51,510 bases of DNA. Origin: Cytophaga sp. FL35. Lineage in GTDB: Bacteria > Bacteroidota > Bacteroidia > Flavobacteriales > Flavobacteriaceae. Below, in pieces: positions 1 through 31,118 of the stretch (positions are counted from its first letter, which is position 1; the number at the start of each line of letters is the position of its first letter). The stretch covers positions 1 through 51,510 of the forward strand of contig NZ_JACSOH010000030.1 in assembly GCF_014349235.1 (NCBI RefSeq). The letters run 5' to 3'. Both the position numbers and the translations under genes were made by a program. The notes under the pieces are model-generated. The model was given only the letters and a program-made list of their open reading frames with translations. It did no database searches and had not been told where the DNA came from.

Positions 1-70
1 GTATGAATTTAAGATCCTGAGCCGCCTGATTCTCACTAACTTTCAAAAATAATCTCCTAAGTTCTTGCAT
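1..70 (-). CDS. 5' end of a third cassette gene, truncated by the window edge
   Basis: An ATG at 70-68 opens a frame that stays open to the window edge, giving 23 residues that begin MQELRRLFLKVSENQAAQD. The start lies only 3 nt after the stop codon of the 580-residue nuclease-like gene, which is the spacing expected for the next gene of the same operon. The fragment is short and charged and shows no recognisable domain. It was too short for routine ORF calling. The tight spacing and open frame are what is seen; that it is a real gene is inferred. Confidence 0.45.
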   Translation of the reverse strand, partial: MQELRRLFLKVSENQAAQDLKFI

Positions 71-73
71 TAA

Positions 74-1816
74 TCAGGTAGAAATTTTGGAGTTTAAACT
101 TATATTTCTCCAAGTATCGGGAAAATAGGGCGTGTGAAAATAATGATGTGCCAAATCTCTTAAGAAAGGATAACCTGCTTTATCAGTTCTATATTCATAA
201 GTAAACTCATCTTTTCTCTTAAAGAGCAGCTCTTGAAATTCTTCAAAAGTTATGGTGGCCTCCAATGTGTTTTCTTTTCTGAAACTGATTTCGGCTTGAT
301 AACCATCGCGAACCGATTTGGAAAACAGCTGCTCTTCAAGGTCGTTCTCGGTATCCTCGATTAATTCTTTGGAGGAAGAATTCAAGCTATGATGTGGAAC
401 GAAAATCCCAAGGTCTATATCGTGCTCCTTGACAAACTCCTTTAACAAATAGAATTCATCTTCCATATCAAATAGGGCCAAGTATTCCAATAAGGTAGCA
501 ATTAGAGGAGAGGTTGAATCGATGTAATAAATAGGTTTCTCTCCCTTTATAGTCAGCTCGATGACACTTCTTATATTATTATTGGCATCTGGTAATCTTC
601 CGTATGTACTTTTTGCATGACGTATGTATCCCAGAACTTGTTTAAGGTAATTTTTGGCACTTTGAACATCGCCTAAATTTAATAGAAGGTTAATAATGTC
701 CAATATTACTATTGAATCAATGTCTAAAAGAACTCGGGCAGAAACCGAATTTTGATTAATTACTTCTACCAAAGCCTTGTTCGCGTTTTTAAAATCGAAT
801 TTAGGATTAAAAGTTCTTTCAAAATTAAGTGTAAAACATAGTGTTTGTAAGTATTGAATCGTTCTATATGTGTATCCTATTTCTTCATATCGACCGGATT
901 CATTACTTGCCAGTCCATCCTTTAACCGGGCAAACGGCATCGTCCTTTTGAGATATTCACATAAAAGAGTGTAGTAGAAAATGAGGATTTGCTGGAAATA
1001 CCCCATGACCACTTGATTTGATTCAAGCTTATTTTTTAAAATCCAGTACCAAAATCTCAGTAGTAGGTGGGTAAGGTAACGCTTGGCAATGTCAAGATTG
1101 TTGTATTCTTTGGATTCCGTATATATTATTAAGGAAATTAAACGCAGTGATTCAAACAATAAAATCCACTTTCGAGGAAGTTTTTTCTTGGAACCCTTAA
1201 AAGTTTTTCTGGTCAATATTACATCTATCAACTCCACAAAATCGTCGGATACCCCATCCGATGTATTCAGGTTGACAAGAATACGGTTAAACAGTTTTGT
1301 GGTCTTAATATCAGTCAACAGATACTCTCCAAAGAGTTTGTCAGCAAACAATTCGGTCAGCTTGTAGATGTTCCATTCTACGAATTCAGTACCCTTATCA
1401 TGAAATTCCTTTTTTACGAAACCGTTTAACTGCTCCCTCGTTTTTCCGGACACCATACCATTAAATACCAAAACGACCTTGATCGGCAAATCTTTGAACT
1501 TGGGGTAAGTAGTCTCAAAATCATGGTCAATAGTCATTGTGAGCGTTTCTCTTACACCATTTGGCCCGTTATTCCAATTTCTACCATCTATATTTCCCGC
1601 TTTAAGTTCAAAATAAAAGCGTTTTTTAGTGCCATCATCGTCATCCTTAACCGCAACTAAATCCTTTCCATACTGGGAAAAGCCTTTGTACTCCTTTGGA
1701 GTTGACAACACTTCAAACCCCATGGATTGGAGAAGCATGGGAAAAATAGCATCCAACTCTTTGTCTTCCTTTAAGGATTCTAAATATTTCTGAACAATAA
1801 TTGGTTTGATATCCAT
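74..1816 (-). CDS. PD-(D/E)XK nuclease-like protein of unknown function
   Basis: This is a 580-residue soluble protein with no signal peptide or clear membrane segment. The first 170 residues look like a restriction-endonuclease fold: a helical start, then G50-K-D52 (QYGKDLVAV) and, after a linker rich in Asp, F69-E70-L-K72. That is the D...ExK pattern of PD-(D/E)XK nucleases. The remaining 400 residues are predicted mostly helical and match nothing I recognise. The ATG start shares its A with the stop of the upstream 628-residue gene (TAATG), so translation is probably coupled. A likely third gene starts 3 nt after its stop. Nuclease activity and an anti-phage role are inferred from the motif and the island setting. 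Confidence 0.7.
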   Translation of the reverse strand: MDIKPIIVQKYLESLKEDKELDAIFPMLLQSMGFEVLSTPKEYKGFSQYGKDLVAVKDDDDGTKKRFYFELKAGNIDGRNWNNGPNGVRETLTMTIDHDFETTYPKFKDLPIKVVLVFNGMVSGKTREQLNGFVKKEFHDKGTEFVEWNIYKLTELFADKLFGEYLLTDIKTTKLFNRILVNLNTSDGVSDDFVELIDVILTRKTFKGSKKKLPRKWILLFESLRLISLIIYTESKEYNNLDIAKRYLTHLLLRFWYWILKNKLESNQVVMGYFQQILIFYYTLLCEYLKRTMPFARLKDGLASNESGRYEEIGYTYRTIQYLQTLCFTLNFERTFNPKFDFKNANKALVEVINQNSVSARVLLDIDSIVILDIINLLLNLGDVQSAKNYLKQVLGYIRHAKSTYGRLPDANNNIRSVIELTIKGEKPIYYIDSTSPLIATLLEYLALFDMEDEFYLLKEFVKEHDIDLGIFVPHHSLNSSSKELIEDTENDLEEQLFSKSVRDGYQAEISFRKENTLEATITFEEFQELLFKRKDEFTYEYRTDKAGYPFLRDLAHHYFHTPYFPDTWRNISLNSKIST

Positions 1817-3702
1817 TAACTATCAAATTTCTTCAAATTCATTTCAAATAAATCGGGGTTACGATATGCCCTAGCGTCTAACCAATGTTCCGATTTTACC
1901 GTTCCCAAAGGCATTACTTCCTCACGCCCCTGTATTTTCCAACTGTTGCCTCTCACGATTACGGTATTCTTTGCAAATCCAAAAAAAGACCCCTCCCCCT
2001 TTCCTATGCTATCCATCATTTTTGCCCTTTGTTCATGTTCGAGACTATAGTATAGATTCATAAGCTCCTTTTCATTTTCATGAGGGTTAACATCGTGCAC
2101 AGCGGATTTCATCTTTTTCACTTCATTGTATACATCCAACGCTTTCTTGATCGGAGCAAGAAACTGTTTGTCTTCTTTCGATGTACTTAACAAATCTGTT
2201 ATAGATTTATAAAGCATGGTATTGTATGAATCAAAGACCAACTGTGCAAGTTCATCTTTTAAATAAGTAACGACCTCTGGAAATGGCGATTCTCGCAGTT
2301 TTATCAATATTGGTATCAACTCATTGATCGAATGAGGATATAAACAAAAACATTCGACAGCCTTTAGCTGTTTATTTTTCGAATCTAATAATTGTAAATC
2401 GATGGGTAATGGATGACCATGGCCGCACATGATAATTTCCACAGGCAGAAGCCCTAATCTGAATCTTGGATCGAACATAGCGAGAATTTCATTTTGGGTC
2501 TCCTTCAGATTCTGTGACCAAAAATGCAAAATTGCATTCTCAAAAAATTTAATTGAATTTCTACCCCATTTAGTATAATAACAGGATTTTATTAAGCGGA
2601 ATAGGTAACTTGGGTTTTGAAACCTAAAAAAGAAATTGTCAAGAATCTTAAAATTTGAAGTTCGGTTAAGGTAAGAGATGAGCAACTTATACTTATTTTC
2701 TTCGTAACCTTTTATGAATTCTACGCTCCATATTACTGCATGGGCAACATCGTCGCTTTTGCATGCGAAGAAGCTATTGATCTTCTTGAAACATTTCGCC
2801 CGCATCGTTTTAGATGTTAATGGGCTCTCAATGATATTGCCAAGAATATTTGTTCGGCGTTGATACGCCGCTTCGGCACTTTCTTTTTCGACTAACCGAT
2901 AAACCTTATAAAGTACTTTTTTAGTGTTAATTTCAATGGCACTAAAAAAACGATAGCCTTCTTCGGGATTCGTTTCCACTATTTTCTCAAACTCCGAGAA
3001 TATTCCTGTATGTCCGTTGTTAAAGAGACCTACGGCCAAATTTGTCAGAAACACAGGATGTCGAAGTGACTTCATTTTGGAACTGACAAAATATAGATTT
3101 TTCGCTAGGTGCAAATTATTCGCACATAATTCCCTAGCAAATGAAAGGACGTAATGTGAATCACCTTTGTCCAAAACTTCATCACATATCCCCAATATTT
3201 TTTCAGCATCATATCCCGAATGAGGTAAGAACCTGAAAAAACAATCATCAAATAAAAAAAGATGATTTTCATGTTTTTGAGAAGGACCAATAATCCGCTT
3301 GTAAAAATCAGCAATATCTACACCGTTCTTTTCCAACTGGAATAAGATATAGCCCTTTAGTCCTTTAAGGATAGCACTATAGGAGCCAATTACATTTGGT
3401 TTAATATCATTCTCTTTTTTTAATATTTCCTCAAGTCCGTCCACCATGGCAAACGAACGCGAAATATCATTTGGGAATTTTTTGCCAATTCTGCCCTCCG
3501 CCAAATCATAAAGGGATTGATTAAATAAGAAAGAATTTGTTTCCAGTTCTAGTAAATCCGGTACTTCTTGTAAGTGCTTTAATATTTTGAGCTTAACTAG
3601 GATATCCACTCCTTCCAATTCGGCCTTTTTAAATTGAGTTTTTTTGGTCTCAAAGACCTTAGTAATCAATCTGTTGATAAAACCTTTTTCCTGTTGATTC
3701 AT
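1816..3702 (-). CDS. Large protein of unknown function, first gene of the island cassette
   Basis: This is a 628-residue protein with no signal peptide, membrane segment, Walker motif or other catalytic signature that I recognise. Long amphipathic helices through most of its length (for example around residues 150-520) suggest an alpha-helical repeat scaffold of HEAT or TPR type. The last 60 residues are different, rich in Gly, Trp and aromatic residues (GSFFGFAKNTVIVRGNSW), and may form a small beta-rich domain. The ATG start at 3702 is preceded by a short AT-rich leader with a perfect palindrome at 3752-3771. The gene ends in a TAATG overlap with the nuclease-like gene, so the two products probably act together, perhaps as sensor or scaffold plus effector. 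No function is assigned. Confidence 0.7.
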   Translation of the reverse strand: MNQQEKGFINRLITKVFETKKTQFKKAELEGVDILVKLKILKHLQEVPDLLELETNSFLFNQSLYDLAEGRIGKKFPNDISRSFAMVDGLEEILKKENDIKPNVIGSYSAILKGLKGYILFQLEKNGVDIADFYKRIIGPSQKHENHLFLFDDCFFRFLPHSGYDAEKILGICDEVLDKGDSHYVLSFARELCANNLHLAKNLYFVSSKMKSLRHPVFLTNLAVGLFNNGHTGIFSEFEKIVETNPEEGYRFFSAIEINTKKVLYKVYRLVEKESAEAAYQRRTNILGNIIESPLTSKTMRAKCFKKINSFFACKSDDVAHAVIWSVEFIKGYEENKYKLLISYLNRTSNFKILDNFFFRFQNPSYLFRLIKSCYYTKWGRNSIKFFENAILHFWSQNLKETQNEILAMFDPRFRLGLLPVEIIMCGHGHPLPIDLQLLDSKNKQLKAVECFCLYPHSINELIPILIKLRESPFPEVVTYLKDELAQLVFDSYNTMLYKSITDLLSTSKEDKQFLAPIKKALDVYNEVKKMKSAVHDVNPHENEKELMNLYYSLEHEQRAKMMDSIGKGEGSFFGFAKNTVIVRGNSWKIQGREEVMPLGTVKSEHWLDARAYRNPDLFEMNLKKFDS

Positions 3703-3751: not shown

Positions 3752-3771
3752 CCTACTATAAAGATAGTAGG
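3752..3771. promoter_or_regulatory. Perfect 8-bp inverted repeat, possible operator of the cassette
   Basis: The arms CCTACTAT and ATAGTAGG are separated by AAAG, 50-69 bp upstream of the start of the 628-residue gene. On the minus strand the palindrome contains TATCTTTA, one base away from the Bacteroidota -7 consensus TAnnTTTG. A repressor bound here could therefore cover the promoter. No convincing -33 box was seen at normal spacing, so the promoter part is tentative. Confidence 0.4.
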
Positions 3772-4536: not shown

Positions 4537-5814
4537 TCAAATTAAAGAGAACAAACCACTATAGTCTTCCGGAAGCTCTGCATCAATATCCTTCAAATAG
4601 GCCTTAAGCGCATCTAGAGTGGAATGGCCTGTAATTAGCATTAACTTATCACAAGTTTCGGTATACGTAAAGTCTTTTCTGAGCTTCCTAAAAAGTAGCG
4701 TTATAAACGTATGCCTAAAGGAGTAGATGGTATATTCACTTCCCAACTGTAGAGTTTCCCCGGTTGCAATTAGATATTCGTTATATTTCTTTTTAAGCTT
4801 CCAAAACCGTTTTGTAAAGTAATCCCTTCTACTTGATTCTATGGCTTCCCATTCACCAATGCCGGTAGGCGTAAACAAAAAGTGATTTTGTACAGAGAAG
4901 TCTAAATCCTGAATTTCGCGAAGAACGATATCAGGTATGATTTTAGTCTTCTCGGGCTTATTCTTTGCCTGAACGCGCAATAGTTTTTGAGAAAGAAAAA
5001 TATCCTTTAACCTAAGTCTACATACTTCAATTGGTCGTAAAAAATTATAGGAAACAAATTTTACGAAGAGCAATAGAAGTGGGTCGTTTTCCTTCATAAA
5101 AGCGAACAAACCTTCCAGAACTTTCAACGAATAGGTCTTATGACTTACCGATTTCGTGTTGAGTACCTTGATATTTTCGATAAAATTTCTTGGGATGATA
5201 TCGTTATCTTCTAGTTCGCCGAATAACGAACTTAGTACGATACGGGTGTTGTTCCGGTTTCTTGCGCTTGAAGCTTTGACGATACTCTGGAGATAATCGT
5301 TTACGGTTTGTTTGGTAACGCTGAGAATACTTTTGTCAAGTAGATTCTTTTTATCCAAATAAGTTTTAAACCTGCCATATCGGCTTTTGTAATCTTTGAC
5401 GGAAGTTTCCGAAAGTTCACTGAGCTTTATGCCGTACGCATAATCCAGTGCCTCTTCAGCCGTATATTCCAAGGATTTTGAATTTAGCTTAAGCTTGTCC
5501 TTGTAAGGAGAATATCCTTCTTTCAACATTTCCAGCAAAACCTCCTTGATGATCCCTAAGTGTAATAACCTTTCCGCTTTGGTCTTAAAATTCTTGTTGA
5601 CACTCATCGTAACTGGTGTCTGGCGAACCAACACGGGATTTCCGAGTTTGTCGAAATGGTCGGGTTTGGCGAAGGAGTAGTAGACATACCACCTTTTGGA
5701 GAGGTCGAAATCATCCCCGCCATGATAGATCTTCGGTTCCGTGTATCTCTTCTTCAAACCGTGTTTGTATGCGGTAGCGTATGCGCTTTGCAATATATCA
5801 AAAAAAGAACCCAT
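4537..5814 (-). CDS. Tyrosine recombinase (site-specific integrase)
   Basis: This island integrase breaks and rejoins DNA at the attachment site. It is 425 residues from the ATG at 5814; a TTG at 5844 would add ten residues. The N-terminal part (to about residue 120) resembles the arm-binding region of Bacteroidota integrases, followed by a core-binding SAM-like domain (about 125-225) and the catalytic domain. Catalytic signatures visible are the first Arg in NFLRPIEVCRLR, a Lys in the following hairpin region (AKNKPEKTK), YSFRHTF carrying the second Arg, TGHSTLDA carrying the His, and the Tyr nucleophile in KAYLKDI. The first His of the usual HxxR box is replaced by Tyr. The gene abuts tRNA-fMet and may be read from the tRNA promoter. 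Two hairpin terminators follow it. Confidence 0.93.
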   Translation of the reverse strand: MGSFFDILQSAYATAYKHGLKKRYTEPKIYHGGDDFDLSKRWYVYYSFAKPDHFDKLGNPVLVRQTPVTMSVNKNFKTKAERLLHLGIIKEVLLEMLKEGYSPYKDKLKLNSKSLEYTAEEALDYAYGIKLSELSETSVKDYKSRYGRFKTYLDKKNLLDKSILSVTKQTVNDYLQSIVKASSARNRNNTRIVLSSLFGELEDNDIIPRNFIENIKVLNTKSVSHKTYSLKVLEGLFAFMKENDPLLLLFVKFVSYNFLRPIEVCRLRLKDIFLSQKLLRVQAKNKPEKTKIIPDIVLREIQDLDFSVQNHFLFTPTGIGEWEAIESSRRDYFTKRFWKLKKKYNEYLIATGETLQLGSEYTIYSFRHTFITLLFRKLRKDFTYTETCDKLMLITGHSTLDALKAYLKDIDAELPEDYSGLFSLI

Positions 5815-5857
5815 TGGCAACAGTTTCAAAACACTGTCAGTCAATGGGTTAATCTAG

Positions 5858-5930
<73 letters not shown>

Positions 5931-6011
5931 ATATGGGTTTCTTCTCACTTGCATCATTGCTGCAGTTCATTACTCTGCCAAGAAGACCGCTACTTTGTTC
6001 GTAACGGGCAG

Positions 6012-6044
6012 CAAATATACAACCGTTTTATTGTATTATCAAAA
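6012..6044 (-). promoter_or_regulatory. Promoter of tRNA-fMet
   Basis: On the minus strand a TTTTG -33 element (6044-6040) is followed after 20 nt by TATATTTG (6019-6012), a perfect match to the Bacteroidota -7 consensus TAnnTTTG. Transcription would start near 6005 and run through the tRNA. It may continue into the integrase gene. Confidence 0.75.
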
Positions 6045-6092
6045 CATATTCGAGAATCTTTTTTTATCCGCCCATAAAACCCCTAAAATGTA

Positions 6093-6100
6093 TACCTTCG
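6093..6100 (+). promoter_or_regulatory. Candidate -7 box for the sodium:amino-acid symporter gene
   Basis: TACCTTCG differs from TAnnTTTG at one base and lies 19 bp before the ATG at 6119. No clear -33 element was found. Confidence 0.35.
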
Positions 6101-6118
6101 AGACTTGCTACATTGCCT

Positions 6119-7483
6119 ATGGAACTAATTAACGACCTAATCTCGGGAGCGCTACCTTTTACGGAGTGGCCCATGTTTATTCTTTTAATCGGTGGGGGAC
6201 TATTCTTAGTCTTCTATTCCAAGTTTTTACCCTATCGCTTTTTTGGTCATGCCATCGCTATAACGGCAGGTAAATATGATGACAAAACAGCACAGGGTGA
6301 TGTGAGTTCGTTTCAAGCGTTATCGGCTGCAGTTGCTGCCACTGTGGGATTGGGAAATATCTCCGGGGTGGCCATTGCCATTCATGATGGCGGTCCGGGG
6401 GTGGTGTTTTGGATCTGGGTCACGGCCCTCATTGGTATGTGTATCAAATTCTATTCCTGTAGCTTGGCTGTGATGTACCGAACTACGGATGCCGATGGTA
6501 AATTGCAAGGCGGCCCCATGTATTATATTACTAAAGGCCTAGGGGAGAAGGCACGGCCTCTGGCCCTGTTTTTTGCGGTGTGCGGACTTTTTGGCTTTTT
6601 AGGTGTTTTTACGGCAAACCAGTTCACGGACACTTTTATGACCGTTGTAGAGCCTAATGAGACCATTGCCAATTTTGGAACCTTTAATTGGCAGTTGGGT
6701 ATTGGTTTTGTACTGGCCATTGTAACTTCTTTTGTTATTTTCGGGGGACTGACAAAAATTGCAAAAGTGGCTTCGGCCATAGTTCCCTTTATGGTTTTGG
6801 TCTATTTATTGGCCGTAGTGGTGGTGATGGTTTTAAATGCTTCCCAAATCATTCCTTCTTTAAAAATGATCGTTACCGAAGCCTGGAACTTCAAAACGGT
6901 GGTGACTGGAGGCTTTTGGGGGCTAGTAATTATCGGTATCCGTAGGGCCATGTTTTCCAACGAGGCCGGTTTGGGTAGTGCCCCTATGTACCATGGGCAG
7001 TCAAAAACCGATAGTCCTATAAAAGAAGGGCTTGTGGCCATGTTAGGTCCATTTATTGATACGATTTTGGTATGTACTTTCACCGCAGTCGTAATCATTT
7101 TAAGTGGCGCTTATTTAGAGGACGGTAGCGGTATTGTTATGACCCTTTCCGCTTTTGAAAAGACCCTTTTTGGTTATGGCGATGACCTTTTAATGCTCAT
7201 CGTTACCGCGTTTGCCTTGTCCACCTTGTTTACCTATTCCTATTACGGGGTGAAGTGTTTGTCTTTTCTGACGAACCCAAAAATAGGCAAGTATTACAAC
7301 TGGTATTTTGTCATCATGATTGTTTTTGCAGCGGTGGCTTCTTTGGAATTGGTAAAGAACCTCATTGATCTTTCCTATGCATTAATGGTAATACCCAATA
7401 TGATTGCCGTACTTTTGTTGGCTCCTAAAGTAAATAAGGAGGCTAAAAAGTATTTTCAGAGGTTAAAAGGTGAGCAGGGATAA
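6119..7483 (+). CDS. Sodium:alanine symporter family protein (AGCS)
   Basis: This inner-membrane secondary transporter of 454 residues is expected to bring in alanine, glycine or a related amino acid with sodium. Family marks seen are GLGNISGVAIAIHDGGPG near residues 75-95, LQGGPMYYITKG, and SNEAGLGSAP near residue 285, together with about ten hydrophobic spans. The ATG at 6119 is preferred over the TTG at 6113 because it lies next to a plausible short leader. Its end overlaps the methyltransferase gene by 14 nt, so the two are probably co-transcribed. Substrate is inferred from the family. Confidence 0.92.
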   Translation: MELINDLISGALPFTEWPMFILLIGGGLFLVFYSKFLPYRFFGHAIAITAGKYDDKTAQGDVSSFQALSAAVAATVGLGNISGVAIAIHDGGPGVVFWIWVTALIGMCIKFYSCSLAVMYRTTDADGKLQGGPMYYITKGLGEKARPLALFFAVCGLFGFLGVFTANQFTDTFMTVVEPNETIANFGTFNWQLGIGFVLAIVTSFVIFGGLTKIAKVASAIVPFMVLVYLLAVVVVMVLNASQIIPSLKMIVTEAWNFKTVVTGGFWGLVIIGIRRAMFSNEAGLGSAPMYHGQSKTDSPIKEGLVAMLGPFIDTILVCTFTAVVIILSGAYLEDGSGIVMTLSAFEKTLFGYGDDLLMLIVTAFALSTLFTYSYYGVKCLSFLTNPKIGKYYNWYFVIMIVFAAVASLELVKNLIDLSYALMVIPNMIAVLLLAPKVNKEAKKYFQRLKGEQG

Positions 7484-7940
7484 TTTTGAACATGAATTTT
7501 TTGGAATTGGCATCCAGAACGGAAAGACACCGGAAAATTTAGGGGTGCTTTGGCGCACCGCTCAAAATTTGGGTGCCAGTTTTATTTTTACCATTGGAAA
7601 CAGGTATGCGAAACAATCGAGCGATACCCACCAAGCAGTAAAGGCCATGCCCTATTTCCACTACGATACTTTTGATGATTTTTATGGAAATTTACCTAAA
7701 GGGGCCATGTTGGTAGGGGTAGAAATGACAGAGAACGCCGTGGATCTGGAGACCTTTCACCATCCCAGAAGGTGTGTTTATTTATTAGGGGCCGAAGACC
7801 ATGGGCTCACCGCTCAGGCCTGTAAAAAATCGCATCATTTGGTACGTTTCCAGTCGGTAAAAAGTTTGAATGTCGCCGTGGCCGGAAGTATCGTGATGTA
7901 CGATAGAAATTTACCAAAACCCAGGTTTAACAAAAGATAA
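7470..7940 (+). CDS. TrmH/SpoU family RNA methyltransferase
   Basis: This 156-residue SPOUT-fold enzyme is expected to methylate a ribose in tRNA or rRNA using S-adenosylmethionine. The three SpoU motifs are present: N-x-G-x-x-x-R-T-A (residues about 23-31), LLGAEDHGL, and SLNVAVAGSIVMYD, which together form the trefoil-knot cofactor site. The start is a GTG inside the end of the symporter gene. The SPOUT domain begins almost at once, so no later start is possible. era follows after 3 nt. The target nucleotide cannot be told from sequence. Confidence 0.9.
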   Translation: MSRDNFEHEFFGIGIQNGKTPENLGVLWRTAQNLGASFIFTIGNRYAKQSSDTHQAVKAMPYFHYDTFDDFYGNLPKGAMLVGVEMTENAVDLETFHHPRRCVYLLGAEDHGLTAQACKKSHHLVRFQSVKSLNVAVAGSIVMYDRNLPKPRFNKR

Positions 7941-7943
7941 GGT

Positions 7944-8831
7944 ATGGAAAAGCATAAATCAGGATTTGTAAATATTATTGGAAACCCCAATGTAGGTAAA
8001 TCTACTTTGATGAATGCCTTTGTGGGCGAAAAATTATCCATTATTACTTCCAAAGCACAGACCACCAGACACCGAATTCTAGGTATTGTCAATGGAGAAG
8101 ATTTTCAGGTGATTTTGTCCGATACCCCGGGAATAATCAAACCGGCCTATGAGCTTCAATCCAGTATGATGAATTTCGTCAAAACGGCATTTGAAGATGC
8201 CGATGTTCTTATTTACATGGTAGAAATAGGGGAGAAAGCTTTAAAGGACGAGGCTTTTTTTGAAAAAATAAAGAATAGCAAAATTCCCGTACTGTTGCTT
8301 TTGAACAAAGTGGATACGGCCACTCAAGAATTGTTGGAAGAACAAGTGCAATACTGGCAAAACCTTTTGCCTACAGTAGAGTTGCACCCTATTTCGGCCT
8401 TGAGCAATTTCAATATCAAAAATGTATTTGAACGCATCATCGAATTACTTCCCGAAGGGCCGGCCTATTATCCCAAAGACCAATTGACGGACAAACCGGA
8501 GCGATTTTTTGTCAATGAGACCATCCGCGAGAAAATTCTTTTGAATTATAAAAAGGAGATTCCATATTCGGTAGAAATTGAAACAGAAGAATTCATAGAG
8601 GACGAAGATATCATTCGCATGCGGGCGGTGATCATGGTGGAAAGAGATTCCCAAAAAGGAATAATAATAGGCCATAAAGGCAGCGCTTTAAAAAAGGTGG
8701 GTATGGAAGCCCGTAAGGATCTGGAGCAATTTTTTGGTAAGCAGGTACACATAGAACTCTATGTAAAGGTCAACAAAAATTGGCGTAGTGATGTGCGTCA
8801 ACTCAAGCGTTTTGGGTACAACCAAAACTAA
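7944..8831 (+). CDS. era: GTPase Era
   Basis: Era is a ribosome-assembly GTPase that binds the 3' end of 16S rRNA during maturation of the 30S subunit. The protein is 295 residues, normal for the family. The GTPase domain shows G1 GNPNVGKS (13-20), the G3 motif DTPGI near residue 60 and G4 NKVD. The C-terminal KH domain carries IIIGHKGSALKKVG near residue 240. The ATG is preceded by AAGATAAGGT. It follows the methyltransferase gene with a 3-nt gap, suggesting one operon. Confidence 0.97.
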   Translation: MEKHKSGFVNIIGNPNVGKSTLMNAFVGEKLSIITSKAQTTRHRILGIVNGEDFQVILSDTPGIIKPAYELQSSMMNFVKTAFEDADVLIYMVEIGEKALKDEAFFEKIKNSKIPVLLLLNKVDTATQELLEEQVQYWQNLLPTVELHPISALSNFNIKNVFERIIELLPEGPAYYPKDQLTDKPERFFVNETIREKILLNYKKEIPYSVEIETEEFIEDEDIIRMRAVIMVERDSQKGIIIGHKGSALKKVGMEARKDLEQFFGKQVHIELYVKVNKNWRSDVRQLKRFGYNQN

Positions 8832-8917
8832 ATCATAACATTAGCTTATTATTGAGCTTACTTTTTGGTTACGGTATTTGATCATATTCGTTTTTAGATA
8901 AATAACTATACCGTACT

Positions 8918-10441
8918 ATGAAAAAATCACTATTAGCAGCCCTGGTTGCAGGAGCTGCACTTTCTTCTTGCATTAAAGATTACATTGGCATGCCTGGTCA
9001 GGATAATGACAAGGACGTAGCCGCACTTACCTTTGAGAAAATAGGAACTTTTAGTAATGGTGAAGGTGATGAAGGCTTTGCCGAAATCAGTGCCTTTGAT
9101 GCCAAAACGAACAAACTTTTTATCGTAAATCCCAATGATGATGAGGTTTCGGTTTGGGATATTTCAAATCCGGGCATGTCCGTAAAACTTTCAGGTATAC
9201 CTTTGAATGGTACTCCAAACAGCGTGGCCGTTCATAAAGGCCTATTGGCCGTAGCGGTCGAAGATGCCAACAAGCAGGCAAATGGAACCATCGTAACCTA
9301 TGACACCGAAACCCTTCAGATGGTAGAAACATATACTGCAGGTGCACTGCCTGATATGGTTGCCTTCTCACCGAACGGAAATTATATCGTTGCGGCAAAC
9401 GAAGGGGAGCCTAATGATGACTATACGGTGGATCCCGAAGGATCGATTTCCGTTATCGATTTAAATAAGAGCGAAGTAGCTACTCTTTACTTTGCTAATT
9501 TCAGCCAAGAAGGTATAGGTAATGATTTTAGGGTTTTTGGGCCGGGTGCGAGCTTTGCCCAAGATGTGGAACCGGAATACGTCGCTATTTCTGATGATAG
9601 CCGTTATGCCTACGTAACCTTACAAGAGAACAACGGTATTGCGGTGGTCGATTTAAAGTCCATGAGCATTACTAATATATACGGGTTGGGAACAAAAGAT
9701 CATTCCTTGCCTATGAATAGTTTGGATGCCAGCAATGAAGATGATATGGTGGGTAACTTCCAGAATTGGCCGGTATACGGTTTCTATATGCCCGATGCCA
9801 TTGCGTTTGCAAAGGTGAAAGGAGGCGAATACTTGATTACCGCTAATGAAGGTGATGCCAGGGATTATGATGGCTATTCTGAGGAAGAAAGGGTAAAAGA
9901 TTTAGAATTGGATGCCACCGTATTCCCCAATGCCGAGGAACTTCAAATGGATGAGAATTTAGGAAGGTTAAAAACCACTACAGCCAACGGCGATATTGAT
10001 GGTGATGGAGATTTTGATAAGATTTATTCCTACGGTACGCGTTCTTTCACGATATGGGATACTTACGGAACACAGGTATATGATAGTGGAGACGACCTAG
10101 GAAGGAAAACTTTTGAATTGAATCCTTCGTATTTCAATGCCGATGAGGGCGAAGCCGACGGTCGCAGCGACGACAAAGGAGCTGAGCCGGAAGCGGTGAC
10201 TACCCTAAAAGTAGGTAGTTCAACATTGTTGTTCGTTGGGCTGGAACGTACAGGTGGCGTGATGGTGTACGACATTTCCAATCCGTATGCACCTGAGTTT
10301 GTCAATTGGATATTCGATGCGCAGGATGTGGCTCCTGAAGGTCTATTGGTAGTGCCCGCAAAAGATAGTCCTACAAAGGAAGACTTGTTGATTGTTACTA
10401 ACGAAGTAAGCAACACCGTTTCTATCTACGAAATCAAATAG
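8918..10441 (+). CDS. Choice-of-anchor I family beta-propeller lipoprotein
   Basis: This is a 507-residue surface or periplasmic lipoprotein. The signal peptide ends in a lipobox, ALSSC, with Cys17. The body is a string of beta-propeller blades with repeats such as NGTPNSVAV, LPDMVAFSPNGNYIVAANEG and ITANEGDARDYDGY. These are hallmarks of the choice-of-anchor I domain, also found near secreted alkaline phosphatases and nucleases. Several acidic Asp-Gly stretches (NGDIDGDGDFDKIYS) look like calcium-binding loops. The biochemical role is not known. The gene stands alone, closed by a terminator at 10470-10501. Confidence 0.85.
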   Translation: MKKSLLAALVAGAALSSCIKDYIGMPGQDNDKDVAALTFEKIGTFSNGEGDEGFAEISAFDAKTNKLFIVNPNDDEVSVWDISNPGMSVKLSGIPLNGTPNSVAVHKGLLAVAVEDANKQANGTIVTYDTETLQMVETYTAGALPDMVAFSPNGNYIVAANEGEPNDDYTVDPEGSISVIDLNKSEVATLYFANFSQEGIGNDFRVFGPGASFAQDVEPEYVAISDDSRYAYVTLQENNGIAVVDLKSMSITNIYGLGTKDHSLPMNSLDASNEDDMVGNFQNWPVYGFYMPDAIAFAKVKGGEYLITANEGDARDYDGYSEEERVKDLELDATVFPNAEELQMDENLGRLKTTTANGDIDGDGDFDKIYSYGTRSFTIWDTYGTQVYDSGDDLGRKTFELNPSYFNADEGEADGRSDDKGAEPEAVTTLKVGSSTLLFVGLERTGGVMVYDISNPYAPEFVNWIFDAQDVAPEGLLVVPAKDSPTKEDLLIVTNEVSNTVSIYEIK

Positions 10442-24328: not shown

Positions 24329-27300
24329 ATGGCATTAAAAGTAGCGATTAAGCACAAGACTGTTTATAAATATGACCGCAAGGTTCATCTCTCCCCTCAC
24401 ATATTTAGGCTAAGGCCTGCTCCACATAGTAGGACTCCCATTGAAGCTTATTCCATTAAAATTAAACCTGAGAACCATTTTTTTAATTGGCAACAGGATC
24501 CTTTTGGTAATTATTTGGCCAGATTGGTATTTCCGGAAAAGACGAATGAACTTTCCATTGATGTGGAAATCATTGCAGATATGAAAACCATCAATCCTTT
24601 CGATTTTTTTGTGGAAGAAGCCGTTGAGGATTATCCTTTTACGTATTCCGAAGCTCTAAAAAAAGAACTGCGGCCCTATCTGGAAATTATGGAGGATGGT
24701 CCGTTGCTTACCGAATGGATATCACAATTAGACCTAAGTAAAAAACGCACTATTGATTTCCTTACCGGGCTCAATCAAAAATTGTATGAGTATTTAAATT
24801 ATACGGTACGATTAGAACCCGGTGTACAAACCTGTGAACAGACTTTGGAAAGAAAGTTGGGTTCTTGCAGGGATTTTGCCTGGTTGTTGGTACAAACACT
24901 TAGACATTTAGGATTGGCCGCGCGTTTTGTATCCGGTTATTTGGTTCAATTAAAGGCCGATGAAAAATCATTGGACGGCCCTTCAGGACCAGAAGAAGAC
25001 TTTACGGACCTTCACGCTTGGGCAGAAGTATATTTGCCAGGTGCCGGGTGGATAGGGTTGGACGCTACCTCAGGACTTTTAGCGGGAGAGGGCCATATTC
25101 CTTTGGCATGTACCCCGTCTTATGAAAGTGCAGCACCGGTATACGGTTTAACGGATCCATGTGAAACTCAATTTGAATTCGAAAACAAGGTCACCCGCAT
25201 TTTTGAATCTCCTCGAGTGACTAGGCCTTACACGGAAGAACAATGGAATGCCATTTACAATTTGGGTTTCAAGGTAGAGGAGGAGTTACAAAAAAACGAT
25301 GTAAGGCTTACTATGGGCGGGGAGCCTACATTTGTATCGGTTGATGATATGGAGGCCGAAGAGTGGAATACCACGGCGGATGGGCCCCATAAAAGGGAAT
25401 TGGCCTCTCATCTTTCCGGCAGGTTATTGGAAGCTTTTGGAAAAGGTGGAATGCTTCACCATGCTCAAGGAAAATGGTATCCGGGTGAAGCCTTGCCGCG
25501 TTGGCTCATAGGGATTCATTGGCGAAAAGATGGGGAAGCCATCTGGAAAAATCCTGAATGGCTGGCTTCATTTTCCAAGGTATATGAGCTTCCTAAGGAT
25601 AGTACATCTACTTTCTTAAAAAAACTATCGGATAAACTTTTGTGTCCTTCGGATACTGTGATGCCTGCCTACGAAGATGCCTTTTACTTTTTGTGGGAAG
25701 AGCGAAAATTACCGGTGGATGTGGACGGAAAAATATACGACCAAAGGGATTCCGCTTTGCGAAAAAAATTGAGCGAGGTACTGGAGCAGGGCACTGGAGA
25801 AGTGGTTGGGCACGTAATGCCCTTATCAAAATCCGGAGGTAGATGGATTACCAACCCTTGGGAATTTAGAGGTGGTAACCTGGTTTTGGCACCGGGCAAT
25901 TCGCCTATAGGATTACGGTTACCGCTAGAGTCGCTGCCTAAAAACCCAAAAATACCCTCCGAACCTACAGCTGAACCCGAACTTTTTGAACCAAAGGAAG
26001 AACTTCCGGCTTATGGGGAAGAATTGCAAAAACGATTGCAAAATGGTAAAGTGGGCCACCTAAAAAATCAGCCCTATGTACGTACTGCTTTGTGCGCAGA
26101 GGTTAGAGAAAATAAATTATACCTCTTTTTACCTCCTTTGAATTCAGCAGAGGACTTTTTGGATTTGATAGCTTCAATTGAGTCCACTGCTTTAGAGTTG
26201 CAAATCCCGGTAATTCTAGAAGGTTACGAACCCCCTAGGGACAATAGATTGGAGGTTTTAAAGATTACCCCAGATCCTGGTGTAATCGAGGTTAATGTAC
26301 ACCCCGCAAAAAATTGGGAGGAGCTTACCAAAAATACGTTAACGTTATATGAAGAGGCGAAAAAATCCCGACTGGGGACGGAGAAATTTATGTTGGACGG
26401 GAAGCATACCGGCACCGGTGGCGGAAACCACGTTACCTTGGGCGGTATAACCCCGGCCGATAGTCCGTTATTACGTAAACCTCAGTTGTTACGTAGCTTA
26501 TTAACTTTTTGGCAGCATCATCCTGGGCTTTCCTATCTGTTTTCCGGGGCTTTTATTGGTCCTACCAGTCAGGCACCCAGGGTGGATGAGGGTCGCTTGG
26601 AAAATTTATATGAACTTGAAATAGCCTTTGCACAGATACCTGAAGAAGGGGAAGTACCTTTTTGGCTAACAGATAGGCTGTTTAGACATTTATTGACCGA
26701 TATCACGGGTAATACGCACCGGGCAGAATTTTGTATCGATAAACTATACTCTCCGGATAGCTCCTCTGGCCGCTTGGGAATTTTGGAGCTTAGGGCTTTT
26801 GATATGCCGCCACATTCCCAAATGAGCCTTATGCAAATGTTACTGGTACGAACCTTGGTTTCCTGGTTTTGGAAAAAGCCCTACAAGCATGATTTGGTAC
26901 GTTGGGGAACTGAACTACATGACAAGTTTTTATTGGAGCATTACGTTAAAGAGGATATTGCCGATGTGGTCTCGCAATTAAACGATGCCGGTTACCCTTT
27001 TCAATTGGATTGGTTCGATCCCTTTTTCGAGTTCCGGTTTCCGTTATATGGGATGGTGGAAATCAATTCCATACAGTTGGAACTAAGAATGGCCATTGAG
27101 CCATGGAACGTTTTAGGCGAAGAAATGTCCGGAAGGGGTACTTCTAGATATGTAGATTCCAGCTTGGAACGAGTACAGATAAAGGTGAAAAATTTTACGG
27201 AAGAGCGGTACAGCATCACCTGCAATGGTGTTAAAATTGATTTGAGTCCCACGGGAACCAAAGGGGAGTATGTGGCGGGCGTACGGTACAAAGCGTGGCA

Positions 27301-27652
27301 GCCATGGTCTGCACTGCATCCCACTATTGGAGTGGACACCCCTTTGGTTTTTGATGTGGTTGATATGTGGAACAAGAAATCAATAGGGGGTTGTACCTAT
27401 TTTGTATCACATCCCGGAGGGCGCTCTTATGAAACCTATCCCGTGAACAGTTTGGAGGCGGAATCACGAAGAATCAATCGTTTTTGGGAAATGGGCCATA
27501 CACAAGATGAGGTTTTACCTGCGCAACCCAAAACAAATACAAATTTTGTGGGTAGATTGGTGGAGCCTAAAAATGCTTCCAGTACATTTGTTTTCAAAGA
27601 AGTACCCGTGAACCCGGAATACCCTCATGTTTTGGATTTACGTAAAAAGTAA
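24329..27652 (+). CDS. Transglutaminase-like protease fused to DUF2126
   Basis: This is a 1107-residue cytosolic protein. The N-terminal 90 residues are the bacterial transglutaminase N-terminal beta domain (starting KVAIKHKTVYKYDRKVHLSP), followed by the transglutaminase/cysteine-protease core with the triad Cys180 (GSCRDFAW), His229 (DLHAWAEV) and Asp245 (GLDATSG). The rest is a large DUF2126 domain, with TMGGEPTFVSVDDM near 325 and TGTGGGNHVTLGG near 695, the latter like a glutamine synthetase or amidoligase loop. Similar genes always sit beside a circularly permuted ATP-grasp gene, as here (6-nt gap). The pathway has been suggested to build or modify a peptide. The product is unknown. Confidence 0.9.
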   Translation: MALKVAIKHKTVYKYDRKVHLSPHIFRLRPAPHSRTPIEAYSIKIKPENHFFNWQQDPFGNYLARLVFPEKTNELSIDVEIIADMKTINPFDFFVEEAVEDYPFTYSEALKKELRPYLEIMEDGPLLTEWISQLDLSKKRTIDFLTGLNQKLYEYLNYTVRLEPGVQTCEQTLERKLGSCRDFAWLLVQTLRHLGLAARFVSGYLVQLKADEKSLDGPSGPEEDFTDLHAWAEVYLPGAGWIGLDATSGLLAGEGHIPLACTPSYESAAPVYGLTDPCETQFEFENKVTRIFESPRVTRPYTEEQWNAIYNLGFKVEEELQKNDVRLTMGGEPTFVSVDDMEAEEWNTTADGPHKRELASHLSGRLLEAFGKGGMLHHAQGKWYPGEALPRWLIGIHWRKDGEAIWKNPEWLASFSKVYELPKDSTSTFLKKLSDKLLCPSDTVMPAYEDAFYFLWEERKLPVDVDGKIYDQRDSALRKKLSEVLEQGTGEVVGHVMPLSKSGGRWITNPWEFRGGNLVLAPGNSPIGLRLPLESLPKNPKIPSEPTAEPELFEPKEELPAYGEELQKRLQNGKVGHLKNQPYVRTALCAEVRENKLYLFLPPLNSAEDFLDLIASIESTALELQIPVILEGYEPPRDNRLEVLKITPDPGVIEVNVHPAKNWEELTKNTLTLYEEAKKSRLGTEKFMLDGKHTGTGGGNHVTLGGITPADSPLLRKPQLLRSLLTFWQHHPGLSYLFSGAFIGPTSQAPRVDEGRLENLYELEIAFAQIPEEGEVPFWLTDRLFRHLLTDITGNTHRAEFCIDKLYSPDSSSGRLGILELRAFDMPPHSQMSLMQMLLVRTLVSWFWKKPYKHDLVRWGTELHDKFLLEHYVKEDIADVVSQLNDAGYPFQLDWFDPFFEFRFPLYGMVEINSIQLELRMAIEPWNVLGEEMSGRGTSRYVDSSLERVQIKVKNFTEERYSITCNGVKIDLSPTGTKGEYVAGVRYKAWQPWSALHPTIGVDTPLVFDVVDMWNKKSIGGCTYFVSHPGGRSYETYPVNSLEAESRRINRFWEMGHTQDEVLPAQPKTNTNFVGRLVEPKNASSTFVFKEVPVNPEYPHVLDLRKK

Positions 27653-27658
27653 TTGAAG

Positions 27659-30217
27659 ATGCCGCTAACCACTACCAATTGGATCAATACCTATCATACC
27701 CAACACAAGAATGATGAGCTGTTTACGGCTCAACAGCGAATAAAACCCTATTGGAACCAACTTCTCAAAGAGTTTGAAAAATTTGGACCCGAGGGGCTCA
27801 TGGCCCGCCAAAAAGATATTGATTGGCTCTTGGGAGAGAATGGGGTTACTTACAACGTCTATAATGACCCTAAAGGGATGCACCGTCCTTGGAATTTGAA
27901 TGTTTTTCCGCATTTGGTGGAGGAACAGGAATGGAAAAAGGTTGAGGCGGGTATTATGCAACGAAGTCGCCTTTTGGATTTGGTCCTGAAAGATGTATAT
28001 GGCGAAAGAAAATTGATCAAAGAAGGTATTATTCCTAGTGAGGTCATCTATGGACATAGGGGGTTTTTACGCCAATGTGATGGTATCACCTATCCCAACC
28101 AAAAGTTTCTATCCATTTACGCAGCGGATTTGGCCCGTGGCAGTGACGGACGTCTTTGGGTGGTAAACGACAGGACGGAGGCTCCTTCCGGAATGGGGTA
28201 TGCCTTGGAAAATCGTTCTACCACTAGTAGAATTTTACCGGAGATTTACAGCCAAATGAACGTTAAGCGTTTGTCCGGTTTTTTCTTTGAACTACATCAA
28301 ATGCTGATGGATGCATCACCTGTAAAAAAGGAAAATCCGTACATAGTCATATTAACCCCTGGTTCTCATAATGAAACGTATTTTGAGCATGCTTACCTAT
28401 CTTCCTTTTTAGGCTACCCGTTGGTACAGGGCAATGATTTGGTAGTTCGAGATGGTTTTCTTTGGATGAAATCCTTACAAGGTTTAAAACGGGTAGATGT
28501 TGTTTGGCGTAGGGTAGATGATGTTTTTGCAGACCCTTTGGAGTTAAGGGAAGATTCCCATTTAGGAGTGGCCGGACTTTTAGATGTTGTTAGAAGGCAA
28601 AATGTGGCCATTGTGAATCCTGTTGGAAGTGCCGTAATGGAAAATCCAGGTTTAATTCCTTTTATGCCCTCCATAAGTAAATATTTCTTGAACGAGGATC
28701 TGATGTTGCCGCAAATTGCCTCTTGGTGGTGCGGGCAGGAGAAAGAAATGAACTATGTTCTTGAAAACTTATCGCAATTGGTCATCAAACGAATAGACCG
28801 AACCAATAGGGAAAGTATCCATTTTGCAGAGTTCCTAAGTGCCGTGGAATTGGAAAAGTTAAAACTTGAAATTAGGCGGACACCCTATAGGTATGTTGCA
28901 CAGGAAAAAATCAATTTCTCTACGGCGCCCAATCTGTCGGGCAATACGGTGGAGCCAAGGCACTTGGTAAGCCGTTCTTTTTGTATTGCCAGTAAGGAGG
29001 CATATCATGTAATGCCCGGTGGACTCGTTAGGGTAGCGCCTAGCAGTGAAACCATTAGGGTTTCCAATCAAAGAGGGGGAACCAGCAAGGATTTCTGGGT
29101 AATTCAGGAAAATGCATCTTTAGAGGAGGTAAAACACTGGCAAACTAGAAGTTCTATTGCAATTTCAGGCCTTAATGACCTACCTAGCCTTACAGCGGAA
29201 AATTTGTTCTGGGCAGGTAGATATGTGGGAAGAACCTTGGTGAACGCCCGCTTTTTAAGAATGGTATTTAGGCAAATGGCCTTACTACAGGACAATGACG
29301 AGAAACCAAAAACGGAAAAATTGGAGGTTTTGTTCCGGGCGGTTACCAATTTAACGGGCACCTATCCCGGTTTTGTGGGTGAAAAGGGTAAAGAAGCTAA
29401 AGCCATGGAACATCCCATGCAAGAAATGCTTTCCGTTCTGTTAGATAGAAATAGACCTGGTAGTTTGGCGCATACCCTGGGGATGTTCAGTAATTCTTAC
29501 TATTCCATTAGAAATCTTTGGTCTACGGATATGTGGCGGGTTTTTGAGAATATTCAGAACATATGGAAGACTTTTGAAAAAAGTGAGGACCGTTCCATCA
29601 ACAGGATTTTAAAAGTGCTCAATCAGTTGATTACCCGATTGATAGCTTTTATGGGGCTTATTGAAGAGAGCATATTGGTGCAGCAAGGTCTGCTTCTTTA
29701 TTTTATAGGGCTGCAGTTGGAGCAAAGTATTCTTACTATTACCAAATGTAGGTCTCTGTTGACCATCGCATATGATGAGCAGGTAGAATATGAATTACTT
29801 GAATATCTGCTAACCAGTCATGAAAGTCTTAATATTTATCGCTATAGTTACCGTTCTTATATTAAGTTGGAGCATGTATTGGATTTGGTGATTTTGGATT
29901 TGGAATATCCTAGGTCCTTAACCTTTATGCTTAACAGAATTCAAAAGGATATTGTACGATTGCCGCATTCAAGACAGGACAATAACTTGGCTAATTATCA
30001 GAAGTACATTTTAGAAGGATTTTCCAAGCTTCGTTTGGCGTCGTCATCAGAATTGATCAAAACCAATTCTGATAAAGATATAGTGCGAAAGGACCTTGAT
30101 ACTTTATTTGAGGAACTTTCCACTTTATTGTATCAAACCAGTCAATCACTAACCAGTACCTATTTTAACCATACAGATAAGCAAAACCAGTTGGTAGTTC
30201 AATCTTTTCCTTTTTAA
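27659..30217 (+). CDS. Circularly permuted ATP-grasp protein with alpha-E domain
   Basis: This is an 852-residue protein from the ATG at 27659 (a TTG lies 6 nt earlier). Residues about 70-475 form the circularly permuted type-2 ATP-grasp, with YGHRGFLRQCDGI, VVNDRTEAPSGMGYALENR and VVWRRVDDVFADPLELR. The rest (about 510-830) is the alpha-E helical domain, starting near LTAENLFWAGRYVGRTLVNA. In many genomes these are two genes; here they are one. It is predicted to join an amino group to a carboxylate using ATP. The gene follows the transglutaminase-DUF2126 gene with a 6-nt gap and precedes the second transglutaminase by 1 nt, so it is one operon. Confidence 0.9.
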   Translation: MPLTTTNWINTYHTQHKNDELFTAQQRIKPYWNQLLKEFEKFGPEGLMARQKDIDWLLGENGVTYNVYNDPKGMHRPWNLNVFPHLVEEQEWKKVEAGIMQRSRLLDLVLKDVYGERKLIKEGIIPSEVIYGHRGFLRQCDGITYPNQKFLSIYAADLARGSDGRLWVVNDRTEAPSGMGYALENRSTTSRILPEIYSQMNVKRLSGFFFELHQMLMDASPVKKENPYIVILTPGSHNETYFEHAYLSSFLGYPLVQGNDLVVRDGFLWMKSLQGLKRVDVVWRRVDDVFADPLELREDSHLGVAGLLDVVRRQNVAIVNPVGSAVMENPGLIPFMPSISKYFLNEDLMLPQIASWWCGQEKEMNYVLENLSQLVIKRIDRTNRESIHFAEFLSAVELEKLKLEIRRTPYRYVAQEKINFSTAPNLSGNTVEPRHLVSRSFCIASKEAYHVMPGGLVRVAPSSETIRVSNQRGGTSKDFWVIQENASLEEVKHWQTRSSIAISGLNDLPSLTAENLFWAGRYVGRTLVNARFLRMVFRQMALLQDNDEKPKTEKLEVLFRAVTNLTGTYPGFVGEKGKEAKAMEHPMQEMLSVLLDRNRPGSLAHTLGMFSNSYYSIRNLWSTDMWRVFENIQNIWKTFEKSEDRSINRILKVLNQLITRLIAFMGLIEESILVQQGLLLYFIGLQLEQSILTITKCRSLLTIAYDEQVEYELLEYLLTSHESLNIYRYSYRSYIKLEHVLDLVILDLEYPRSLTFMLNRIQKDIVRLPHSRQDNNLANYQKYILEGFSKLRLASSSELIKTNSDKDIVRKDLDTLFEELSTLLYQTSQSLTSTYFNHTDKQNQLVVQSFPF

Positions 30218-30218
30218 T

Positions 30219-31118
30219 ATGGTCTTTAATGTAATCCATACAACCGCCTACAAGTACAATGCACCGGTTAGCTATTGTCATAACATTGCCACCCTTAGAC
30301 CGCGTGATTCCCAAGGGCAGAAATTATTGGATTTTAACATAGACATCAGTCCCCTTCCTTCGGAAATTTCTGAAAGGAGGGATTTCTTTGGAAATTTTAT
30401 CACTAGATTTTCCATCCAAACAGAACATAAGGAACTAAAAGTAACTACCAAGAGTAAAATAGAAAGGGACTTCACACCATTCAAAGAAAATATGAATAGC
30501 AATAGTTGCAGGGGAGTTACAAACTCGCAAGCAATCTTTGCATTAAAGGGAGCCACCACACCAGAACTTTTGGACGCCAAGCAATACATCTTGGATTCTA
30601 TATTTATAAGGCGGGCCAATGCGCAAATCAGGGAATATGCCAAAGTTTCTTTTCTACCCAACCGCTCGGTTTTTGATTCGGCATATGAACTCATGCAGCG
30701 TATTTATACAGACTTTGATTTCGTTTCTGGCTTTACAAGTATTTCAACTCCGGTAGAGGAGGTGATGAGGGAGAAAAAAGGGGTTTGCCAAGACTTTGCG
30801 CAAATTGCCATCTCCTGTATTCGTTCTATGGGGTTGCCCGCAAGGTACGTGAGCGGCTATATAGAGACCATTCCGCCAGAAGGCCAAGAAAAATTAGTGG
30901 GAGCAGATGCGTCCCATGCTTGGTTCTCCATATTCATTCCTGGTTTTGGATGGGTAGATTTTGACCCTACCAACAATATGATACCCATGAACCAGCATAT
31001 TGTTGTAGGCTGGGGAAGGGACTATTACGATGTTCCTCCTTTAAAGGGAGTTGTTTTTGGGAGTGGAAAGAGTAAGCTCAAGGTAATGGTAGATATTACG
31101 GCTGCGCAACCGGTTTAA
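30219..31118 (+). CDS. Transglutaminase family protein
   Basis: This 299-residue protein again has the bacterial transglutaminase N-terminal domain (VIHTTAYKYNAPVSYCHN) followed by the protease-like core, with Cys190 (GVCQDFAQIA), His233 (DASHAWFS) and Asp249 (DFDPTNN). The start is 1 nt past the ATP-grasp stop. It differs from the first transglutaminase of the operon by lacking DUF2126. It may cleave or transfer an amide on the product of the ATP-grasp enzyme. The biochemistry is unproven. Confidence 0.92.
   Translation: MVFNVIHTTAYKYNAPVSYCHNIATLRPRDSQGQKLLDFNIDISPLPSEISERRDFFGNFITRFSIQTEHKELKVTTKSKIERDFTPFKENMNSNSCRGVTNSQAIFALKGATTPELLDAKQYILDSIFIRRANAQIREYAKVSFLPNRSVFDSAYELMQRIYTDFDFVSGFTSISTPVEEVMREKKGVCQDFAQIAISCIRSMGLPARYVSGYIETIPPEGQEKLVGADASHAWFSIFIPGFGWVDFDPTNNMIPMNQHIVVGWGRDYYDVPPLKGVVFGSGKSKLKVMVDITAAQPV

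Follow-up and report, generated by a model that had tools for sequence, protein, structure and literature searches.

The two complete genes at the left end of contig C30 of Cytophaga sp. FL35 almost certainly constitute the anti-phage system Olokun (oloA-oloB), in the form of a divergent clade that has so far been met mainly in Bacteroidota. The window, that is, the whole stretch of DNA that was analysed, was this complete contig (51,510 bases), which belongs to a 4.84 Mb genome assembly of 81 contigs (G000). An earlier note on the window, made without database searches, had placed an anti-phage cassette consisting of a nuclease-like protein and a large partner beside an integrase. That proposal was borne out; the suggestion that the cassette was undescribed was not, since both genes match Olokun models in PADLOC. 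The locus is an already described system, seen here in a further lineage, a flavobacterium.

Olokun is said to have been introduced by Millman et al. in 2022 as a two-gene system (oloA, oloB) with anti-phage activity. Passages of an E. coli defence-island survey treat it as a known system (PMC10121019), and part of a 2026 review groups it with systems of unknown mechanism (PMC12926258). None of the paper titles found under the names OloA or OloB was on this subject.

The OloB protein matched PADLOC model PDLC03926 with E=4.7e-137 (residues 6-572 of 580, profile positions 3-553 of 556) and the OloA protein matched PDLC03925 with E=2.1e-49 (residues 119-626 of 628, profile positions 68-589 of 596). 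PDLC03926 also was matched by all ten members of the OloB alignment, and PDLC03925 by 8/8 members in each OloA alignment. When one E. coli oloAB pair was tested, the same two models were matched (3.2e-207 and 6.4e-111). The gene arrangement of Olokun was found in the window as well; the genes are adjacent and on one strand with oloA first, as in two E. coli loci that were inspected. Pfam and NCBIfam gave nothing above cut-off for either protein, and a PDB sequence search with both gave no useful match, which explains why the earlier note could not name them. Its statement that the 628-residue partner had no known domain therefore held for Pfam and NCBIfam, where OloA had no match at E <= 1, but not for PADLOC.

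Co-occurrence of the two genes, which had been proposed as a check, was found in one phylum sample of 395 genomes: OloB was present in eight (E <= 1e-10), OloA in seven (E <= 1e-6) and both in six (hypergeometric P 3.8e-11). Weak partial matches of OloB in G518 and G662 (OloB-only genomes) and of OloA in G706 (OloA-only) were set aside.

In the OloB tree the window grouped with L010 (Flavobacterium flevense), L029, L011 and L030 (support 100/100) on a long stem branch of 1.88 changes per column; L011 is filed as a Rickettsiales metagenome-assembled genome, a label that is unconfirmed. Two long rows, L032 and L019, were flagged by the tree program as unsurely placed, with L032 meeting the window's clade. 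This long stem, together with an identity of 17-23% to canonical OloB, counts in favour of an undescribed defence system that is unrelated to Olokun and resembles it in repeat content only. Such an explanation is exceedingly improbable; it is already contradicted by two independent family matches, nearly full length for OloB and from residue 119 for OloA, the gene order is that of E. coli and the motif residues align across the rows.

When E. coli genomes were queried with a viral-contig oloB of enterobacterial type, 14 of 5,426 had a relative. Both E. coli loci inspected were two-gene cassettes behind phage tail genes, followed by a remnant of the IS4 insertion sequence family. Like the window, E. 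coli Olokun (e.g. NZ_CP076285.1, 281667-285096) has two adjacent genes in the same order, which match PDLC03925 and PDLC03926. It differs in having 1 nt between the annotated genes, whereas those of the window overlap at TAATG, and in lying after phage tail genes rather than beside an integrase at tRNA-Met. E. coli OloB is 22% identical to the window's OloB and has Ser instead of Glu at position 70; E. coli OloA has 574 residues compared to 628 in the window, where the family match begins about 50 residues later.

Predicted fold and candidate active site of OloB

The N-terminal ~165 residues of OloB are likely to form a PD-(D/E)XK-like fold, an assignment that comes from modelling and is unproven. 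The AlphaFold2 model (8 sequences; mean predicted local distance difference test score (pLDDT) 77, predicted template modelling score (pTM) 0.72) consisted of an N-terminal alpha/beta domain and then helical repeats. The PD-(D/E)XK core has the order alpha-beta-beta-beta-alpha-beta; the helices (H) and strands (E) of the N-terminal model (H18-31, E35-38, E53-58, E64-72, H88-97, E112-118, H124-137 and E144-148) fit that order. D52 just precedes one strand (53-58) and E70 and K72 end the next (64-72); residues 44-48, directly before D52, had a pLDDT below 50. In Foldseek searches with the OloB model the best enzyme was MspJI (three chains, probability 1.00, E 0.024-0.06), and the C-terminal repeat region brought TPR proteins.

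Residues 1-170 of OloB (18 rows, L032 excluded) were compared by hhalign with 12 Mrr_cat domains, 12 being used of the 16 Mrr loci fetched. OloB residues 12-156 were collinear with the entire Mrr domain; D52 aligned with the Mrr Asp and E70-L-K72 with Q-A-K (P 2.4e-4, or 8.1e-5 with canonical members only). None of 20 column shuffles reached the OloB-Mrr score, and the solenoid control gave an hhalign probability of 0.2%. OloB had no Pfam match to Mrr or to a restriction enzyme. Compared with MspJI/Mrr-type PD-(D/E)XK enzymes, the N-terminal domain of OloB is alike in predicted fold and in the collinear Asp and Lys, with weak statistics; it differs in that the remainder of OloB is a predicted TPR-like solenoid and in that a gene for a solenoid partner accompanies oloB.

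Conservation was tallied over 19 OloB rows. D52, K72, E17, G50 and W148 were conserved in 19/19 and E20 in 18/19. Position 70 was Glu in five rows; the other 14 had S (6), T (3), V (3), I (1) or A (1) there. Glu70 was confined to the window's clade (5/5, compared to 0/14 elsewhere). The D...ExK signature reported earlier (D52, E70, K72) was thus present and its Asp and Lys were general, but its Glu was a feature of one clade. The tally and the tree omit L031, an OloB-like protein from G707 without the N-terminal domain; if it is included, D52 and K72 are found in 19/20. L037 (identical to L036) and L041 (different from L039 at 3 of 3,800 bases in the part compared) were not counted, L033 and L034 (weak partial matches) were not used, and L032 was retained in the tally.

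Several observations weigh against a nuclease reading of OloB. The top Foldseek match was a designed repeat protein (E 0.0078), neither the OloB nor the OloA model had a Foldseek match at E <= 0.001, and the match to MspJI carries no residue-level alignment. The hhalign probability was low, at 20% for all 18 rows, 33% for canonical members only and 3% when the five members of the window's clade were used by themselves; one column shuffle in 20 came within 0.5 of the OloB-Mrr score. Glu70 is missing in 14/19 rows, so that a standard D-ExK site cannot hold for Olokun in general. Furthermore, the six genomes in which both genes occur include G707, whose OloB-like protein lacks the N-terminal domain. 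Structure prediction, suggested in the earlier note as a check, gave an order of elements that fits PD-(D/E)XK, with weak Foldseek and hhalign statistics.

These data are relevant to an alternative in which the locus is Olokun but a degenerate PD-(D/E)XK fold binds nucleic acid without cutting it, OloB being a sensor or scaffold and not the effector. In 14/19 homologues the ExK Glu is replaced by one of T, S, I, V and A, and the matches to known nucleases are weak; both observations point in this direction. The invariant D52, K72, E17 and G50 and the nearly invariant E20 resemble a retained active site, however, and the D-ExK set is complete in every member of the window's clade; the alternative was judged rather unlikely. 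A further proposal, put forward tentatively and less likely than not, is that OloB is the nuclease effector of Olokun, with two active-site classes in the system: a Bacteroidota-centred clade with a standard D-ExK site, and canonical forms without the motif Glu, in which an acidic residue close to the beginning of the first core helix (E17 or E20) may take its metal-binding role. If there are two such classes, the window's clade would be the tractable form for proving the nuclease.

OloA and a possible mechanism

The AlphaFold2 model of OloA (mean pLDDT 77.4, pTM 0.61) was mostly helical and had the form of an alpha-solenoid, with a short helix-strand unit at the N-terminus; the C-terminal stretch (535-628) was modelled with low confidence. 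Its Foldseek neighbours were ARM/HEAT-like (beta-catenin, importins, CAND1), none of them at E <= 0.001. The C-terminal tail, which had been described as distinct, proved to be common to the OloA family; it could be aligned across the family, and G585 and P616 were invariant in 8/8 members. OloA had 613-644 residues in the close clade and 573-580 in seven of the eight others measured, the remaining one (L039) having 636. The open reading frames (ORFs) upstream of oloB in L027, L028 and L032 encode 530, 690 and 636 residues, respectively, and OloA length is therefore no clean separator of the clades.

An OloA-gated cleavage of nucleic acid by OloB is the mechanism that we infer, and it is reasonably probable. 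OloA and OloB would be co-produced and form a complex; the solenoid of OloA would sense, or be released by, an infection cue; the N-terminal PD-(D/E)XK domain of OloB would then cut phage or host nucleic acid, and infection would stop. Such cleavage could be selective for phage DNA or could kill the cell. With the PD-(D/E)XK reading, two conserved candidate catalytic residues and a clade that has the full motif, the mechanism of Olokun becomes open to a direct test by point mutation.

Distribution of Olokun and the putative third gene

The distribution of OloB is rare and scattered; it was found in 2/395 genomes of a class sample and in one of three genomes of the genus. Seven viral-contig loci were recovered with the OloB alignment as query. 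In all seven, an ORF measuring 575-639 codons from stop to stop lay upstream and ended inside the oloB start, and this ORF matched OloA in 5/5 distinct loci (PADLOC). No match was found when the viral contigs were queried with the single OloB protein of the window, and the phage records had no OloB match. Among five plasmid loci inspected, three had an annotated gene of 575-579 residues that overlapped oloB by 4 nt; at L019 a 300-residue gene lay at the oloA position, and at L015 insertion sequence transposases lay between oloB and the upstream region.

A divergent pair was observed at L031 (G707, 5669-9662), where proteins of 856 and 492 residues matched OloA and OloB, respectively, the latter without the usual N-terminal domain. 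Residues 387-490 of this OloB-like protein matched the C-terminal end of LmuA (Lamassu) with E=8.1e-11. This pair may represent a system in which the effector has been exchanged.

The earlier note had described three packed leftward genes. Two long minus-strand ORFs with the TAATG overlap were indeed present, but the third gene amounted to 23 codons and was unsupported. An ATG 3 nt past the oloB stop opens these codons (MQELRRLFLKVSENQAAQDLKFI), which run off base 1 of the window, the end of the contig. A continuation of the first 160 bases was sought in the assembly itself, and the sole full-length match was the window. The next best match, on contig C9 (81% over ~45 bases), was considered as a continuation or paralogue and rejected, as it lies inside another ORF.

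The region downstream of oloB was compared at 19 loci, with L031, L033, L034, L037 and L041 left out; the 143 ORFs of at least 60 residues within 2.5 kb of oloB were compared all against all. A same-strand gene with a 4-nt overlap at the oloB stop was present in 2/19 relatives: a 146-residue ORF in L011 with no Pfam or PADLOC match, and a gene of the RlaP family (RNA repair nucleotidyltransferase) in L029 (G688, 5631-6728). L010 and L030 had opposite-strand ORFs downstream of oloB, and the DNA in this position differs in each of the four other close-clade loci. Starts on the oloB strand between 60 nt before and 30 nt after the oloB stop were found only in L011, L029 and L028 (a 92-residue ORF), and none of these ORFs matched another locus. 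The downstream ORFs common to more than one locus (E <= 1e-3) were those shared by two E. coli loci and two ORFs in the prophage loci L038 and L039; none of these shared ORFs lies on the oloB strand with its start in the 30 nt that follow the gene.

These results bear on a three-gene variant of Olokun in which a third gene would begin at base 70 and extend past the contig edge. The position of the ATG agrees with such a variant, as does the fact that, of the four other close-clade loci, two have a downstream gene with a 4-nt overlap. These genes, however, are unrelated to each other, no coupled downstream gene was common among the 19 loci, and the 23-residue peptide had no meaningful match among the 143 downstream ORFs (best E 3.4). 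The chance that 22 further codons would stay open at the local composition was 0.24. A third gene was therefore considered very unlikely, and the 23-codon fragment, being unsupported, was excluded from the system.

Layout of the locus and the tRNA-Met site

The features at the left end of the window are listed in Table 1. The sequence at the TAATG junction of oloA and oloB was AGTTAATGG. About 830 bases without an ORF of at least 60 residues (ORF list) separate oloA from the integrase.

Table 1. Position of oloA, oloB and neighbouring features in the window.
Feature	Position	Strand	Description
oloB	74..1816	minus	580 aa; predicted N-terminal PD-(D/E)XK-like domain (~residues 1-165; D52, E70, K72) and C-terminal TPR-like helical repeat region
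oloA	1816..3702	minus	628 aa; predicted alpha-solenoid (ARM/HEAT-like) partner with conserved C-terminal tail; stop overlaps oloB start
23-codon open stretch	1..70	minus	cut by contig edge; unsupported as a gene of the system
tyrosine recombinase (integrase)	4537..5844	minus	Pfam PF00589, E=1.3e-05; 87.8% identical protein at same tRNA in sister species G002
tRNA-Met (CAT), presumed integration site	5857..5930	minus	ARAGORN; Rfam RF00005

A perfect 8-bp inverted repeat (CCTACTAT-AAAG-ATAGTAGG) was found at 3752-3771, ~50 nt upstream of oloA; shuffles led to an expected mean of 0.01 per window with up to two mismatches allowed. A search of the 250 nt upstream of oloA in four close relatives gave no perfect palindrome. 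The repeat is a candidate operator, promoter or terminator.

The integrase at a tRNA gene that had been reported earlier was confirmed, the tyrosine integrase adjoining tRNA-Met. Its match to Pfam Phage_integrase (25.5 bits) was slightly below the cut-off of 27.1. To the right of the tRNA, genes for a symporter, a tRNA methyltransferase and Era read, from their sequences, as ordinary chromosomal genes. Sister species G002 aligned with the window from position 4542 rightwards, chromosomal genes included (90% over 7,472 columns), and its integrase gene was 82% identical at the DNA level. The G002 sequence to the left of that integrase encodes a relaxase, MobC/NikA and an AbiEi/AbiEii pair (L048, G002:C11, 13270-14912), and what appear to be conjugation genes reach as far as ~37 kb from the tRNA. 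The alignment with sister species G001 began at the tRNA, and the ORFs to the left of it showed no integrase. Given these differences among the three genomes compared, tRNA-Met is a variable site in the genus. The far end of the island was sought by means of the sister genomes and was not located, the flanking gene of G001 being unmatched in G000 or G002. The locus is a flavobacterial Olokun, and the integrase beside it has a close relative in a sister species; this relative occupies the same tRNA and adjoins other defence cargo.

Elsewhere in the window, three adjacent plus-strand ORFs of 1107, 854 and 299 residues were observed at 24329-31118; by reading alone they resemble a transglutaminase-like / circularly permuted ATP-grasp cluster.

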